64,000 bases of DNA, taken from the NCBI GenBank assembly GCA_025057015.1, contig JANWYG010000018.1:1-64000 (forward strand), in the 5' to 3' direction. Shown here one piece after another: positions 30,665-35,397 of the stretch. The DNA comes from Blastocatellia bacterium (GTDB lineage Bacteria; Acidobacteriota; Blastocatellia; Chloracidobacteriales; JADJPF01). The first letter of the stretch is position 1. The number at the start of each line of letters is the position of its first letter. The position numbers and the translations under genes were made by a program. The notes beneath the pieces were generated by a model, which was given only the letters and a program-made list of their open reading frames with translations, made no database searches and had not been told where the DNA came from.

Positions 30665-31240
30665 ATGAGCGAGCAGAATAGGAAAACAAACTCTATCAAC
30701 GCTCAAACAAGAAGGGATATTTCTGAGCAAACTGGAGCAGTAGAGGCGGAACAGACTTTGCCTTATCAGCAGTACCATGGTCATCACCAGTACGGTTACT
30801 ACGATCCGAGATCTAACGTTTCACCTCATGAGCCTGGGCAAAATCAGTATTTTCAGCAGCCGATGGATTTGGGCTTAAGGTTTGAGCCTCGTGTAGCTGC
30901 AGCGCTTTCATACGTGGCATTTATTATATCGGGCATAGCTTTTCTGTTGATAGAGCGTAAGAATCGATTTGTGCGCTTTCATGCTATGCAATCGGTAATT
31001 TTCAGTGCCGTCTGGATAGTCACTACTTTAGGTATAGGTTTTTTAATGATGACGGTTGGAATGGTTGCAGCTATTATAGGCATCAGCTTGGTGCTCCAAA
31101 TGATAGGTTTCGTAGTTAATTTGGTATCGGTAGGTTTTTTTGTTCTCTGGGTAGTGCTGATAGTGAAAGCCTATCAGGGTAATAAGTATAAGCTGCCGAT
31201 TATAGGTGATTGGGCTGAAAAACAGCTAGATAGGTTTTAA
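30665..31240 (+). CDS. DUF4870-like membrane protein with Gln/Tyr-rich N-terminus
   Basis: The 191-residue protein has a disordered N-terminal half (QQYHGHHQYGYYDP, many Gln/Tyr/His) and a DUF4870-like membrane domain (about 70-180). The pattern RVAAALSYVAFIISGIAF, ERKNRFVRFHAMQSVIFS and a final VLIVKAYQGNKYKLPIIG is typical. About three transmembrane helices are present. The stop overlaps the E1 start by 1 nt, placing it in the ubiquitin-like operon. Function unknown; a membrane partner is possible. Confidence 0.8.
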   Translation: MSEQNRKTNSINAQTRRDISEQTGAVEAEQTLPYQQYHGHHQYGYYDPRSNVSPHEPGQNQYFQQPMDLGLRFEPRVAAALSYVAFIISGIAFLLIERKNRFVRFHAMQSVIFSAVWIVTTLGIGFLMMTVGMVAAIIGISLVLQMIGFVVNLVSVGFFVLWVVLIVKAYQGNKYKLPIIGDWAEKQLDRF

Positions 31241-32430
31241 TGAAGTACCAGCAGGATGATGATCCGTTCGAGCGGCAAAGTAGAATAGAGTGGTGGCATC
31301 AGCAAGTGCTTCGTAACGCTAAGATATGCGTAGTAGGAGCAGGGGCGCTTGGAAACGAAGTATTGAAGAACTTGGCACTGCTGGGATTAGGACACATCCT
31401 GATACTGGATTTTGATGAGATTGTCGGCTCGAATTTGTCTAGGACAGTTCTTTTTCGACAGGAGGATATAGGTAAGAACAAGGCTGAGGTGGCTGCCTCT
31501 GCTATTAAGCAGATGATGCTTGAGCCTACAGCTAAGCTAGAGTACTTCAATGGAGACGTTGTTTGGGACCTGGGAGCTGGTATCTTCAGACGGTTCGACA
31601 TAGTAATAGGCTGTGTGGACAATGACGAGGCACGGCTTGCTATCAACCGTGCTTGCCGAAGTACGCAGCGCCCTTGGATAGACGGTGGTATACATGGGCT
31701 TGCTGGTAGCGTTACTGTCTATGCTCCTAAAGGGCCTTGCTTTGAGTGTAACGTAACTAGCGATCAGCTGGCGGATGCACTGTCCCGCTATGACAGCTGT
31801 GAAAATGTCAAGCGACGCTATATACAGCAGGAGCGCCTTCCAGCTGTGCAGGTTACGTCGGCAGTTATAGCGGCTTTGCAGGTACAGGAAGCTATTAAGT
31901 ACTTGCATGGGCAAGCGGTTACAGGTCGGAAGTATTACTTTAATGGTATGGTGAATGGCCTAACTAGCATAGAGCTGCAGGAAAATCCCAACTGCCTTGC
32001 CCACGGTGTTTATGGTGAAATCGTAGAGCTTGCCGCTTCAACTACAAGTACTTTAGCTGAGCTGATCGATGAGTTGAGGCGATATTTCAGCGGCGAGTTT
32101 ACTATTCTGCTAGGAAGGCGTTTTATAGTGGCTATTGCTTGTCGTAATTGTGGCGAGCGAGTTCGGTTAATGCGTCCGGCTCATATGATATACGATGATG
32201 AGTTGTACTGTGCTACCTGTAGACGCAATCCTGCTAGCAAGGTTGCTGAAACCTATGCTGATGCTGACTATATAGAGGTTTTCAGCTCTCTTTCTTCGGA
32301 CTCGTCGGCAGAGTATGCTCGAATGTCGCTTGGGCAACTTGGACTGCCGCCGTTGCATATATTTACTGCTTTTGATGCTAATAAGTCTCTCAGTTTCGAG
32401 CTAGCTGGTGATGTCAGCAGGGGTTTATGA
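31240..32430 (+). CDS. E1-like ThiF/MoeB-family adenylating enzyme with C-terminal zinc ribbon
   Basis: The 396-residue protein activates a C-terminal glycine by adenylation. ATP-site features are ICVVGAGALGNEVLKN (33-38 GAGALG), LDFDEI (Asp57), NLSRTVLF (Arg68), GKNKAE (Lys79/81) and VDNDEAR (Asp127). CFEC (167-170) is one zinc pair; Cys187 in YDSCENVKRR stands at the crossover position where E1 enzymes carry the catalytic Cys, before PAVQVTSAVIAALQVQEAIK. An added domain of about 150 residues holds CRNC (301-304) and CATC (324-327). It is co-translated with its neighbours and should charge the Ubl encoded at 33132. Confidence 0.9.
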   Translation: MKYQQDDDPFERQSRIEWWHQQVLRNAKICVVGAGALGNEVLKNLALLGLGHILILDFDEIVGSNLSRTVLFRQEDIGKNKAEVAASAIKQMMLEPTAKLEYFNGDVVWDLGAGIFRRFDIVIGCVDNDEARLAINRACRSTQRPWIDGGIHGLAGSVTVYAPKGPCFECNVTSDQLADALSRYDSCENVKRRYIQQERLPAVQVTSAVIAALQVQEAIKYLHGQAVTGRKYYFNGMVNGLTSIELQENPNCLAHGVYGEIVELAASTTSTLAELIDELRRYFSGEFTILLGRRFIVAIACRNCGERVRLMRPAHMIYDDELYCATCRRNPASKVAETYADADYIEVFSSLSSDSSAEYARMSLGQLGLPPLHIFTAFDANKSLSFELAGDVSRGL

Positions 32431-32789
32431 TGGTCATTGCTTTGCTGATGATAACTTATTTGGTGATCTGGGTAGTTCTTCTAGCAATAGCACAGGGCCG
32501 TTACCTTTACCTGCAGTCCAGAAACGGCTCTAAAGTGCTTGAAAAATACCCTGCCATTTTCAGGTCGGCTTTAGTGGCGTTGATCGAGTTAGGACGGCTC
32601 TACGAGCATGAGCGTCAGGGTAGTATAATAGAGCAACTGACCAGAGTCGAGCACTATGGACAGGGGCTACAGAGCGTCTTCAGAGTAAACTATGGTGGAT
32701 TACCACAGCGGTGTGAGGTCTGTCACCTTACTGATAAGTTTGATGTTGAGACCGGAATTTGTAGTCGATGCCTTCACACTACCCGATAG
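32427..32789 (+). CDS. Membrane-anchored CxxC-x12-CxxC mini-protein (copy 1)
   Basis: The 120-residue protein has one N-terminal transmembrane helix (about residues 3-22), a helical linker and a C-terminal zinc-binding module RCEVCHLTDKFDVETGICSR with CLH following (Cys96, 99, 112, 115; His100 and His117 nearby). It overlaps the E1 stop by 4 nt. A paralogue follows at 32832. The module recalls a treble-clef or zinc-ribbon, a size and place where an E3-like adaptor could be expected, but only one zinc site is visible, so it is not a canonical RING. Confidence 0.75.
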   Translation: MMVIALLMITYLVIWVVLLAIAQGRYLYLQSRNGSKVLEKYPAIFRSALVALIELGRLYEHERQGSIIEQLTRVEHYGQGLQSVFRVNYGGLPQRCEVCHLTDKFDVETGICSRCLHTTR

Positions 32790-32831
32790 AGAGTTCTTTT
32801 GATATGCTTAGAAAACAACTCTAATTTGCCT

Positions 32832-33116
32832 ATGGAATTCTTTTCTTTTCTGCTTTTTGTCCTCTTTTTTGGCTTTTTGGGTATGAATGTATGGGATATA
32901 TGGCAGGAAAGAGTTTTTGGAGATCCTCTTGATATGAAATTTATTCCTCGTGTTTCAAGATATATCAGGTCAAGCGAAGTCGAGCCGGTATTGATGCAGG
33001 GTACGTTTAGTATAAACTCAGTAGGCATTGCATTGCGTTGTGAGATATGTCATCAGTCCGACCTATTTGACGAAGCTACCGGCCTGTGCTCTAGATGTAA
33101 TCATGTTACGTCGTAG
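32832..33116 (+). CDS. Membrane-anchored CxxC-x12-CxxC mini-protein (copy 2)
   Basis: The 94-residue protein has a hydrophobic helix at residues 3-20 and ends in RCEICHQSDLFDEATGLCSR plus CNHVTS (Cys70, 73, 86, 89). This matches the copy 1 motif RCE(V/I)CHxxDxFDxxTGxCSRCxH almost residue by residue, while the linkers differ. ATG at 32832 was chosen; TTG at 32799, 7 nt after GAGAG, is an alternative adding 11 residues. It lies 15 nt before the Ubl gene. The two are clearly duplicated domains fixed in one operon. Confidence 0.72.
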   Translation: MEFFSFLLFVLFFGFLGMNVWDIWQERVFGDPLDMKFIPRVSRYIRSSEVEPVLMQGTFSINSVGIALRCEICHQSDLFDEATGLCSRCNHVTS

Positions 33117-33131: not shown

Positions 33132-33404
33132 ATGGCAGATATAGATGTTACTTTTAGAAATGAAAATAACGGCAAAGAAGTAGAAGTAACAGTTTCGGAT
33201 GATATGCCTGCCGATGCGATATTGCGCAACCTGGCTGAGGCTGGGCTGATACCGAATATACCGGGCACGGCTTTAGTTTACCGTGGAGTGCAGCTACGGC
33301 CTGGTCAGACGCTTGCTCAGATGGGCGTTCGCAATAACGATACGATAAGTATCTTCTTGAATACTCGCGGCGGAGGTCTCAAGTGGGTACACCAGAAGAA
33401 GTAA
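33132..33404 (+). CDS. Ubiquitin-like beta-grasp protein with GGG and 8-residue tail
   Basis: The 90-residue protein fits the ubiquitin fold: DIDVTFRNENNGKEVEVTVS (beta hairpin), ADAILRNLAEAGL (helix), LVYRGVQLRPGQTLAQMGVR and DTISIFLNTRGGG. Gly80-81-82 is followed by LKWVHQKK, so a protease would have to expose the diglycine before E1 charging. GGAGG precedes ATG 33132. The Gly codons include the GGAGG used as RBS of the E2 gene, which starts inside this gene. YukD-like Ubls of type VII secretion lack such E1/E2 neighbours, so a conjugation role is the better inference. Confidence 0.88.
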   Translation: MADIDVTFRNENNGKEVEVTVSDDMPADAILRNLAEAGLIPNIPGTALVYRGVQLRPGQTLAQMGVRNNDTISIFLNTRGGGLKWVHQKK

Positions 33405-33940
33405 GACGGGCAAGGTTAGAGGCCGACTATGAGGAGATGAAGTCCATACGTGGTACTGTAATAAGCTGGCAGGCTATAGGTGTGCCGCCCAGCGAGTACA
33501 TTGTGACATTTAACGTAAGAAGTTATATAAGCGCTGTACAGCAGCGTAATCAGCATCGTGTTAGAATAATACTTTCCCCGAACCACCCTTTTGAAAAGCC
33601 ACTGGTGATGATGCATGAAATGTCGCCTATATTTCATCCTCACGTGTGGCCGGATGGTAAGATCTGTGTAGGAAATTGGGATTATCGTGAAGGACTGGGC
33701 TCATTTGTAGTTAAGTTGGCCAGGATCTTTCAATACGATCCGACTCTTATTGATCCTTACTCTGTAGCCAACTATAACGCTGCAGATTGGTTCTATGCGA
33801 ACCCTACGCTTTTTCCTACCGATAGACAACCTTTGCCTGTACCTGGTAACAAAGAGGTAGGCGGTCAGACTTTTAGAATCAAATCTCCAGTGTCGTCTAG
33901 TACACAACAGAAACCAAAGTTTGTAATAAAGCAGAAATGA
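33383..33940 (+). CDS. E2-like ubiquitin-conjugating (UBC-fold) protein
   Basis: The 185-residue protein has the UBC layout: an N-terminal helix (EEVRRARLEADYEEMKSI), strands ending RVRIILSPNHPFEKPLVMM (the usual YPxxxP place) and then SPIFHPHVWPDGKICVGNWD. Cys95 aligns with the catalytic Cys of E2 enzymes, and HPH (85-87) replaces the eukaryotic HPN, so the Asn is His. After Cys95 the family pattern ARIFQYDPTLIDPYSVANYN continues. GTG at 33383 stands 6 nt after GGAGG and overlaps the Ubl gene by 22 nt. It ends with a Ser/Gln/Lys-rich tail and overlaps rtcB by 4 nt. Confidence 0.88.
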   Translation: MGTPEEVRRARLEADYEEMKSIRGTVISWQAIGVPPSEYIVTFNVRSYISAVQQRNQHRVRIILSPNHPFEKPLVMMHEMSPIFHPHVWPDGKICVGNWDYREGLGSFVVKLARIFQYDPTLIDPYSVANYNAADWFYANPTLFPTDRQPLPVPGNKEVGGQTFRIKSPVSSSTQQKPKFVIKQK

Positions 33941-35397
33941 AAGAAGTGTTTAAAGGGCCTCTTGAGCGGGTAACGGACTATTGCTGGCGGATACCAAAAT
34001 CCTATAAACCTGGTATGCGCGTTGACGGGCTTATATATGCTAGTAGTAAGCAAATTCGAACAATTAGAGAAGATCTAGCGCCTGAACAAGTGGCAAACGT
34101 CGCCTTTTTACCAGGTATTCAGTACGCAAGCATTGCCATGCCGGACATACACTGGGGCTATGGGTTTTCAATAGGTGGTGTTTGCGCAACAGATCCAGAA
34201 GAAGATGGCGTAATTTGCCCTGGAGGAATAGGCTACGATATAAACTGCGGCGTGCGTTTAGTCGCAACGAATCTGCACTTGGAGGAAGTGCGACCAGTTC
34301 TGCGCCAGCTTGTAGAGGAACTTTTCAAAGAAATTCCTACTGGTGTTGGACGTTCTGGCAGGTACTACTTTGATAAGAAGGAACTGCGGCACTTAATGAG
34401 AGATGGTGTCAGCTACCTTTTCAAGAAGGGGCTTGCTACTCAGCAAGACATAGATCATACGGAAGAGAATGGTAAGCTCGTTTCTGCTGATCCAGACGCA
34501 GTAAGTGACCGTGCGCTTGAACGCGGCGCCGAGCAGTGCGGGACGCTGGGTTCTGGCAACCATTTTTTAGAAGTTCAGGTAGTTGATGAGGTAGTGGACG
34601 AGGCTGTGGCACTTGTCATGGGTATAGAAGTCGGACAAGTAGTAGTGATGATCCACTCTGGTTCGCGGGGTCTTGGCTATCAAGTTTGTGAGGATGCTCT
34701 CAAATCACTTAGAAAAGCTACAGAAAAATATTCTATACAGCTACCTGATAAGCAGCTTGCTTGTGCACCTATTAAAAGCAGCGAAGGACAGCAATATCTG
34801 GCGGCGATGTCTGCTGCTGCAAACTTTGCTTGGTGTAACCGGCAACTTTTGATGTGGCAAACTCGGGAAGTGTTTGAAAGATTTTTTGGTCGTTCCTGGC
34901 AACAATTGGGAATGCGGCTGGTTTATGACGTAGCACATAACATAGCTAAGTTCGAGCAGCACTCTGTAAACAACACAGTTAAGACGGTCTGCGTTCATCG
35001 AAAAGGTGCTACGAGAGCTTTTCCCGCAGGGCACGCTGATGTGCCTTCCTCTTATCGCTCGATCGGCCAGCCAGTCATTATCCCCGGTGATATGGGTAGG
35101 TCTAGCTGGCTTTTAGTGGGTACGGAAGGTAGCCTACAAAAGACTTTTGGTACAACTTGTCACGGGGCCGGACGCGTTCTTAGTCGTTCTGCGGCAGTAA
35201 AACAGGCTGAAGGACATCATATAAGCAAGGAGTTAGAAGATAGAGGAGTTATTGCTAGGGCACGTAGTTGGAAGGGTTTAGCAGAAGAAATGCCCGCTGC
35301 TTACAAGGATGTCGATGAGGTGGTCGATGTCGTAGAGCGAGCTGGTATTACTCGCAAAGTGGCTAGAATGCGTCCTATTGGGGTAATCAAGGGTTGA
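33937..35397 (+). CDS. rtcB: RNA-splicing ligase RtcB
   Basis: The 486-residue ligase joins 2',3'-cyclic-phosphate or 3'-phosphate RNA ends to 5'-OH ends using GTP and Mn. Metal and GMP-site motifs are DINCGVR (Cys104), GTLGSGNHFLEVQ, MIHSGSRGLGYQ, YDVAHNIAKFE, HRKGATRAFPAG and TCHGAGRVLSRS with the His that accepts GMP. Length is normal for the family. It overlaps the E2 gene (ATGA) and is the last gene of the operon. No archease or rtcA/rtcR gene lies beside it, so its regulation differs from the classic rtc operon. Confidence 0.95.
   Translation: MKEVFKGPLERVTDYCWRIPKSYKPGMRVDGLIYASSKQIRTIREDLAPEQVANVAFLPGIQYASIAMPDIHWGYGFSIGGVCATDPEEDGVICPGGIGYDINCGVRLVATNLHLEEVRPVLRQLVEELFKEIPTGVGRSGRYYFDKKELRHLMRDGVSYLFKKGLATQQDIDHTEENGKLVSADPDAVSDRALERGAEQCGTLGSGNHFLEVQVVDEVVDEAVALVMGIEVGQVVVMIHSGSRGLGYQVCEDALKSLRKATEKYSIQLPDKQLACAPIKSSEGQQYLAAMSAAANFAWCNRQLLMWQTREVFERFFGRSWQQLGMRLVYDVAHNIAKFEQHSVNNTVKTVCVHRKGATRAFPAGHADVPSSYRSIGQPVIIPGDMGRSSWLLVGTEGSLQKTFGTTCHGAGRVLSRSAAVKQAEGHHISKELEDRGVIARARSWKGLAEEMPAAYKDVDEVVDVVERAGITRKVARMRPIGVIKG

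Follow-up and report, generated by a model that had tools for sequence, protein, structure and literature searches.

A probable ubiquitin-type activating enzyme (E1) with a ubiquitin-fold-like C-terminal domain and a putative zinc ribbon in the Chloracidobacteriales

The stretch of DNA analysed here, called the window, comprises 64,000 nucleotides of a Blastocatellia bacterium belonging to the order Chloracidobacteriales of the Acidobacteriota (assembly GCA_025057015.1, contig JANWYG010000018.1, positions 1 to 64,000 of the forward strand). Within the window, an open reading frame (ORF) encodes an E1-like activating enzyme, which very probably serves as E1 in a ubiquitin-type conjugation pathway of bacteria. 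The features of this gene, with their conservation in the family alignment described below, are the following:

31240..32430, + strand: E1-like activating enzyme, 396 amino acids, ATG start (ORF; Pfam ThiF)
31297..31998, + strand: adenylation domain of the ThiF/MoeB fold, residues 20-253 (Pfam ThiF, E 8e-53)
31738..31749, + strand: candidate zinc pair 1, C167-x2-C170 (CFEC; 64/64 family rows)
31798..31800, + strand: Cys187 of the crossover loop (SCENVKRRY), candidate thioester cysteine (64/64 family rows)
31993..32004, + strand: candidate zinc pair 2, C252-x2-H255 (NCLAH; 64/64 family rows)
32005..32427, + strand: C-terminal domain resembling a ubiquitin-fold domain (UFD), residues 256-396, 141 amino acids (model, Foldseek, VIA, Pfam)
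32140..32220, + strand: putative zinc ribbon in the UFD, C301/C304 and C324/C327 (family alignment columns)

A scan of genome contigs with the single E1 sequence gave nothing; with alignment A1 as query, 54 loci were obtained from Acidobacteriota, Planctomycetota, Verrucomicrobiota, Bacillota, Synergistota, Ignavibacteriota, Bacteroidota, Thermoplasmatota and others. Furthermore, a search of the phylum matched 73 of 297 genomes at E 1e-20 or better, most of them by partial matches of MoeB length, and 12 of the 14 stretches taken from it were used (L047 and L048 were left out). The family alignment thus holds 64 rows, namely the window, the 12 rows of the phylum search and 51 of the 54 scan loci, the other three having no E1 ORF that passed. 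Due to the duplicates L036/L082 and L041/L095, these rows represent 62 different records, several of which are close relatives. As controls, 12 out of 21 MoeB-type loci were usable; L017, which is a family member, L004, which is a poor match, and seven loci in the wrong frame were taken out. In a tree of 74 rows, the 12 MoeB-type controls are split from the 62 family rows with a support of 100/100.

The adenylation site of the window E1 is intact (G33, G35, D57, D59, N65, R68, K81, D127 and R132). Here, K81, D127 and R132 are found in 64/64 family rows and R68 in 61/64. Compared with solved structures by phmmer, Uba1 (E 4e-28) and the SUMO E1 (E 1.5e-27) are closest, and MoeB is matched with E 1.3e-19. 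A model of the full-length protein has a mean predicted local distance difference test score (pLDDT) of 84.9, with values below 50 for residues 188-200, which follow Cys187. The best match of its core in VIA-align is MoeB (1jw9_B, Z 31.1), and the alignments to SAE2, UBA3 and Uba1 span approximately 300 residues and reach the C-terminus. More specifically, 311 residues were aligned with SAE2 of the E1-E2-SUMO complex (9dqb_B, root-mean-square deviation 4.3) and 311 with UBA3 of an E1-E2 complex (2nvu_B, root-mean-square deviation 8.2). The enzyme is probably a homodimer, and no partner subunit was seen.

An earlier reading of this DNA from the letters alone (the sequence-only reading) had listed three CxxC pairs and a candidate catalytic Cys187 in an SCENVKRRY crossover loop. 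Translation confirms both, the pairs being CFEC (C167/C170), CRNC (C301/C304) and CATC (C324/C327). That these pairs form three zinc sites was rejected, since the first CxxC probably pairs with C252/H255. This CxxH element, absent from the sequence-only reading and probably the second half of the CFEC site, is present in 64/64 family rows, whereas 12/12 MoeB-type controls have CxxC at the same place. The possibility named beforehand that Cys187 is missing from close homologues is not borne out, the residue being kept in 64/64 rows. Cys187 is not special, because it is also conserved in 12/12 MoeB-type controls, and the notion of the SCENV cysteine as a special feature is not supported. Both the CFEC pair and the crossover cysteine are common to the family and the controls. 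As judged from the alignment, the crossover cysteine is an expected feature of the superfamily, the family is marked by CxxH together with the C-terminal domain, and CxxH is a better family marker than Cys187.

The additional C-terminal domain is real and not an element of plain MoeB enzymes, as had been claimed, although it measures 141 residues instead of about 150. In 12/12 MoeB-type controls the columns of C301/C304 are gaps. Of three controls scanned against Pfam, two carry a rhodanese domain C-terminally, one has no C-terminal match and none matches a UFD. A cysteine is aligned by MAFFT at column 327 in 10/12 controls; in the two scanned ones its place is within the rhodanese domain or close to it. 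Scanned on their own, residues 256-396 of the window E1 do not reach the cut-off of any Pfam family. The model of the isolated domain, built with 50 sequences, reaches a pLDDT of 92.5. Searched with Foldseek, ranks 1-12 are UBA3 or UBA2 chains or their UFDs (best E 0.017, probability 0.97), and in VIA ranks 1-27 are E1 chains aligned over their UFD with Z-scores from 10.0 to 6.4, followed by ubiquitins at about 6. In addition, two of the 50 C-terminal domains match Pfam UAE_UbL, the best with E 4.9e-4. When residues 141-396 served as query of a profile search, E1/MoeB matches covered the adenylation part, and three weak ones fell in the C-terminal domain (E 0.33 to 1.1); the alignment of the C-terminal domain, used against the PDB, gave 17 weak matches, many of them zinc-ribbon proteins. 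On balance, the evidence supports a UFD into which a zinc ribbon would be inserted. Given the resemblance to the UFDs of eukaryotic E1s, recruitment of an E2 by this domain is plausible. In eukaryotes, the UFD is described to bind helix A of the E2 via a basic (K/R)RXX(K/R) motif (PMC12355090). Helix 1 of the E2 encoded at the locus carries VRxARL in 14/14 genomes of the order, which may represent a basic run similar to that used by E2s to bind the UFD, not the same motif.

Several observations weigh against this assignment. None of the Foldseek matches to UFDs reaches E 0.001, and the best VIA match (Z 10.0) spans 86 of 141 residues, where Z-scores of 7 to 8 are typical without clear kinship. 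Just 2/50 C-terminal domains match UAE_UbL even at the loose limit of E 1, and no UFD is among the 17 weak matches of the PDB profile search (best E 0.086). VRxARL deviates from (K/R)RXX(K/R), and 2/14 of the E2s have one basic residue fewer. The E1s of the Thermoplasmata loci L125, L129 and L132 (approximately 265 amino acids) have no C-terminal domain, and in L125 and L132 an E2-like gene adjoins the domain-less E1; therefore, the C-terminal domain is not always needed. As regards catalysis, Cys187 is not confined to E1s that conjugate a ubiquitin-like protein (Ubl). Likeness of fold alone would also be insufficient to show E2 binding, which for the window E1 is a prediction.

The four ribbon cysteines C301, C304, C324 and C327 are found in 45, 45, 45 and 38 of the 64 rows, respectively; 38/64 rows have all four and 19/64 have none. 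Among the latter, 16 rows of Ignavibacteriota/Bacteroidota keep the domain, and the three Thermoplasmata rows lose it as a whole. Weak matches to zinc-ribbon families of Pfam occur among the scanned members of the C-terminal domain (alignment A3). Since 19/64 rows, some of them from loci with an E2, have no ribbon, it is probably structural. The sequence-only reading had suggested that the ribbon could recruit the E2 or the twin zinc proteins encoded downstream of the E1. As an E2 docking element it was dismissed, the ribbon being missing from L106, L116, L117 and L118, in which an E2 is still present a few genes from the E1. Recruitment of the zinc proteins was likewise rejected, as the ribbon is common where such a protein was not seen nearby. 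That the ribbon is a functional docking element for the twin zinc proteins is thus very improbable, even though ribbon and zinc proteins are alike rich in cysteine and are encoded next to each other in 13/13 genomes of the order with an E1. Here, the RCE[VI]CH pattern of the zinc proteins was found in just 4/54 scan loci, all from Acidobacteriota, among picked ORFs that missed at least the copy of L084/L143, and the clusters without a ribbon have an E2.

The genes encoded around the E1, together with a peptidase gene elsewhere in the same genome, are as follows:

30665..31240, + strand: DUF4870-like membrane protein, upstream co-directional neighbour of the E1 (Pfam DUF4870 at its 25-bit cut-off)
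32427..32789, + strand: Z1, hydrophobic N-terminal segment followed by a CxxCH...CxxCxH knuckle, with FRVNY just before the knuckle
32799..33116, + strand: Z2, paralogue of Z1, likely start ATG 32832 (by relatives), with TFSIN before the knuckle
33132..33404, + strand: Ubl, 90 amino acids, NTRGG followed by a 9-residue tail (Pfam Rad60-SLD)
33383..33940, + strand: E2 conjugating enzyme, HPH 85-87, Cys95 (33665-33667), FRIK and FVIK in the C-terminal tail
33937..35397, + strand: RtcB RNA ligase, 4-base overlap with the E2 stop (Pfam RtcB, E 6e-174)
G000 contig C23:191956-192684: JAB peptidase, on another contig of the same genome

The Ubl matches Pfam Rad60-SLD with 29.7 bits (cut-off 23.8, E 6e-7) and Pfam ubiquitin with 21.9 bits, which is below the cut-off of 25.4 (E 1.5e-4). 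Compared with single ubiquitins (E of about 0.0005-0.01), the alignment ends at residue 81, corresponding to ubiquitin residue 76, with GG placed on GG. The E2 has the HPH and Cys95 in the arrangement of E2 enzymes, with weak family scores: Pfam UQ_con gives 20.1 bits (E 5e-4), below its cut-off of 27, and the best E against E2s of the PDB is 0.003, with Cys95 aligned to the E2 cysteine. Z1 and Z2 are putative membrane proteins, as suggested by their hydrophobic segment; they contain a single CxxCH/CxxCxH knuckle and match no RING family of Pfam at E 1. Furthermore, no RING gene was recognised within the window. A few genes from the E1 at L042 (10896-11480) and L100 (9368-9727), RING-like cysteine-rich proteins, candidate E3s, were noticed in the translations. 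RtcB was rejected as a member of the pathway, since its pairing with the E2 was not seen in the translations of the E2 neighbourhoods of six relatives (G302, G303, G304, G051, G063 and G123).

Within the 14 genomes of the order, the Ubl, the E2 and the JAB are present in 14/14 and the E1 in 13/14, the exception, G301, being an assembly of approximately 1,090 contigs. The E1, the zinc protein and the Ubl are neighbours in 13/13 genomes with an E1. Going by synteny, the Ubl and the E2 are presumably cognate to the E1. The E2 lies apart from the Ubl gene in 10/14 genomes. The JAB adjoins the E2 in G051, G063 and G301, and JAB, E1 and E2 form one cluster in G302, G303 and G304. The Ubls are 73-97% identical among the 14 genomes, and their core ends with RGG in 14/14. 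Behind it come 0 to 21 unrelated residues, and three of the Ubls stop exactly at GG. This pattern would be that of a trimmed precursor. The presence of Ubl, E2 and JAB in 14/14 genomes and of the E1 in 13/14 speaks more for a core pathway than for a mobile defence island.

An E1 is encoded at 51 scan loci, among them six (L080-L085) that are near relatives of the window. A Ubl, E2 or JAB lies close by in at least 41 and all three in at least 17, and in ten none was found; these counts are lower bounds due to picked ORFs, contig ends and simple gene finding. L081 and L082 were counted without a partner, L082 duplicating the record of L036, which does contain a Ubl. In the Thermoplasmata loci L125 and L132, Ubl, E2 and JAB-like genes adjoin the E1. 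The translations of the sister genomes L142, L143 and L144 contain a PP2C-phosphatase-like gene upstream of the E1, and L143 and L144 have an additional zinc-ribbon/FHA-like protein there. L087, L088 and L089 (Deltaproteobacteria, Synergistaceae and Lachnospiraceae) represent related operons with extra E2 and JAB-like genes, with an ATPase-like gene in L088 and L089.

The enzyme could also be read as a MoeB/ThiF-type sulfur-transfer activator, which adenylates a small beta-grasp protein as sulfur carrier and uses the extra domain otherwise. The window E1 gives good matches to the NCBIfam models of ThiF (TIGR02356, E 6.5e-37) and MoeB (NF004281, E 3.7e-33), though far under the cut-offs, with 126.9 bits against 275.25 and 114.8 bits against 266, respectively, and it has Cys187 and the CFEC pair in common with the MoeB-type controls. 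The JAB alone does not discriminate, since it is also described from sulfur-carrier operons (PMC1779556). Nevertheless, the same genome has separate MoeB-type genes (L001, L002), the 12 MoeB-type rows stand apart in the tree, the genomes of the order encode an E2 and a JAB together with the E1, and the nearest families of the Ubl are those of SUMO/ubiquitin. We therefore regard a role in sulfur transfer as quite improbable.

Bacterial ubiquitin-like pathways of known role are mostly directed against phages. A conjugation system for phage defence, similar to Bil, type II CBASS (Cap2) or Bub, would fit with the matches of E1-E2 models of PADLOC (best E 2e-16) and of BilD (E 2.7e-8) to the adenylation core, as well as with accounts of related systems that conjugate Ubls or act in defence (PMC11354881, PMC13373217), among which protection against phage is given as not shown for Bub (PMC13373217). 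However, the BilD match covers 65 residues (27-91), corresponding to model positions 209-278 of 453. The window E1 has neither a fused E2 nor the N-terminal half of the BilD/Cap2-type models; its ThiF domain starts at residue 20 and the E2 is encoded separately. Ubl, E2 and JAB in all 14 genomes of the order, with the E2 away from the Ubl in most of them, likewise speak against a defence island. One pattern scan of IMG/VR found no relatives, and phage records gave six partial matches (49-62% of the query), four of which are annotated as ThiF/MoeB and two are unannotated. Among plasmid records there is one relative, from Crinalium (NC_019754.1:38816-39859), covering 86% of the E1 with 36% identity. 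A defence system is thus unlikely, and the E1 of a ubiquitin-type conjugation pathway remains the preferred assignment.

A short motif runs through several of the presumed components of this pathway. The tails of the E2s contain F-x-[IVL]-[KR] in 14/14 genomes of the order, in 13 of them twice, and the JAB N-termini read M-[KT]-F-x-I-K in 14/14 (10 by pattern and 4 as MTF-x-IK by eye). In the zinc proteins, an invariant F and x-[ILV] stand just before the knuckle in 10/10 aligned sequences, and the K/R that would come next is not constant. A similar motif occurs in 5/13 E1 N-termini, the window E1 not being among them, and the Ubls do not have it. The sites of this FxIK-like motif are:

33872-33883 and 33920-33931, window: E2 tail
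L141:5957-6688; Z1 and Z2: further sites

As background, a somewhat stricter motif lies near an end in 16/217 other ORFs of at least 100 amino acids from the same stretches, a set that includes unproven ORFs, and shuffled pathway proteins have the motif near an end in 4.2%. The counts for pathway proteins come from homologues and thus represent few independent events. On the level of DNA, the FxIK codon pattern is not enriched in the window, with 5 occurrences against 2.8 expected, a number reached by 20/100 shuffles. Since three unrelated families have the motif in common, a single binding partner is suggested, and it is possibly a Ubl-docking motif. By analogy with a SUMO-interacting motif, it may bind to an acidic groove of the Ubl. 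At the ends of proteins encoded at L087, L088 and L089, strands resembling KIKIK, TIQIQR or RIRIG were noticed by eye, perhaps a counterpart of FxIK.

The observations consist of conserved residues, fold similarity of the models, the genes present and their order; the catalytic steps, the binding of zinc and of the E2, where the ribbon sits in the fold and what the zinc proteins do are inferred, the steps by homology with known systems. On this basis, the pathway would most probably operate as follows. The JAB peptidase would probably trim any tail of the Ubl beyond RGG, and the ThiF-fold domain would adenylate its C-terminal glycine. Cys187 in the mobile crossover loop would accept the Ubl as thioester, while the C-terminal UFD, stiffened or decorated by the zinc ribbon, would hold the E2, so that the Ubl could move to Cys95. 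The E2 would then attach it to targets near the membrane, with the zinc proteins likely acting as membrane anchor, adaptor or first substrate, and the JAB would remove the Ubl from the targets. Tentatively, and with less than even confidence, we propose that this pathway is core cell machinery and not defence. It would consist of one Ubl, an E1 with a zinc-ribbon UFD, an E2, a JAB and a zinc protein in the membrane. The FxIK-like motif would connect these parts by binding the Ubl as a SUMO-interacting motif binds SUMO, and would direct tagging to the inner membrane.

As for known systems, the 2011 abstract of Burroughs, Iyer and Aravind reportedly states that prokaryotic E1s can have a C-terminal UFD. 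The kind of pathway is already known, because bacterial E1/E2/JAB/Ubl operons have been described before (PMC1779556, PMC4197634). Those of Iyer 2006 are, as far as described there, of other designs (PMC1779556). The predicted operons of Burroughs 2011, as cited in PMC4197634, are of the same kind, E1/E2/JAB/Ubl with or without a RING protein, come from Actinobacteria, Planctomycetes and Acidobacteria and are related to the Caldiarchaeum ubiquitylation operon. In contrast, a zinc-knuckle protein lies here between E1 and Ubl with no RING recognised in the window, most genomes of the order have the components at scattered places, and the presence in 14/14 genomes differs from operons called sporadic and often missing in close relatives (PMC4197634).

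The Ub/E1/E2/srfp/Rpn11 system of Caldiarchaeum subterraneum likewise has a pro-Ubl with a tail after GG, a separate E2 and a JAMM/Rpn11-type peptidase, and differs by its RING-H2 E3; a C-terminal UBL domain of archaeal E1-like proteins is mentioned in a figure legend of the same source (PMC5654768). Its catalytic cysteine is reported in a distinct domain of 60 amino acids (PMC11354881), whereas that of the window E1 would lie in a short MoeB-like loop. UBA3 and SAE2, from the NEDD8 and SUMO E1s, likewise combine the adenylation fold with a C-terminal UFD. In contrast to these (in part after PMC12355090), the loop of the window E1 is too short for an SCCH-type catalytic-cysteine domain, CxxH replaces the second CxxC, a zinc ribbon appears to lie in the UFD and no partner subunit was seen. 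MoeB, MoeZ and ThiF have the adenylation fold, a CxxC and the crossover cysteine in common with the family, but have CxxC in place of CxxH, carry a rhodanese domain in 2/3 controls and form a separate branch (100/100). BilD and Cap2 have the adenylation core in common; their models are matched in part, and the window E1 is without E2 fusion and N-terminal half. Limited searches of the open literature, in which CxxH and FxIK were not used as terms, gave no mention of a zinc ribbon in the UFD, of the CxxH signature, of a presence throughout the order or of the common motif.

The E1 joins a MoeB-like catalytic loop with a eukaryote-like, putative E2-docking domain, which would make it a useful intermediate for the evolution of E1 enzymes. 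The order, whose near relatives carry the name Chloracidobacterium, appears to keep a complete tagging pathway as a standard part. A pathway found in 14/14 genomes would allow the cellular role of bacterial ubiquitin-type tagging to be tested in a culturable relative.

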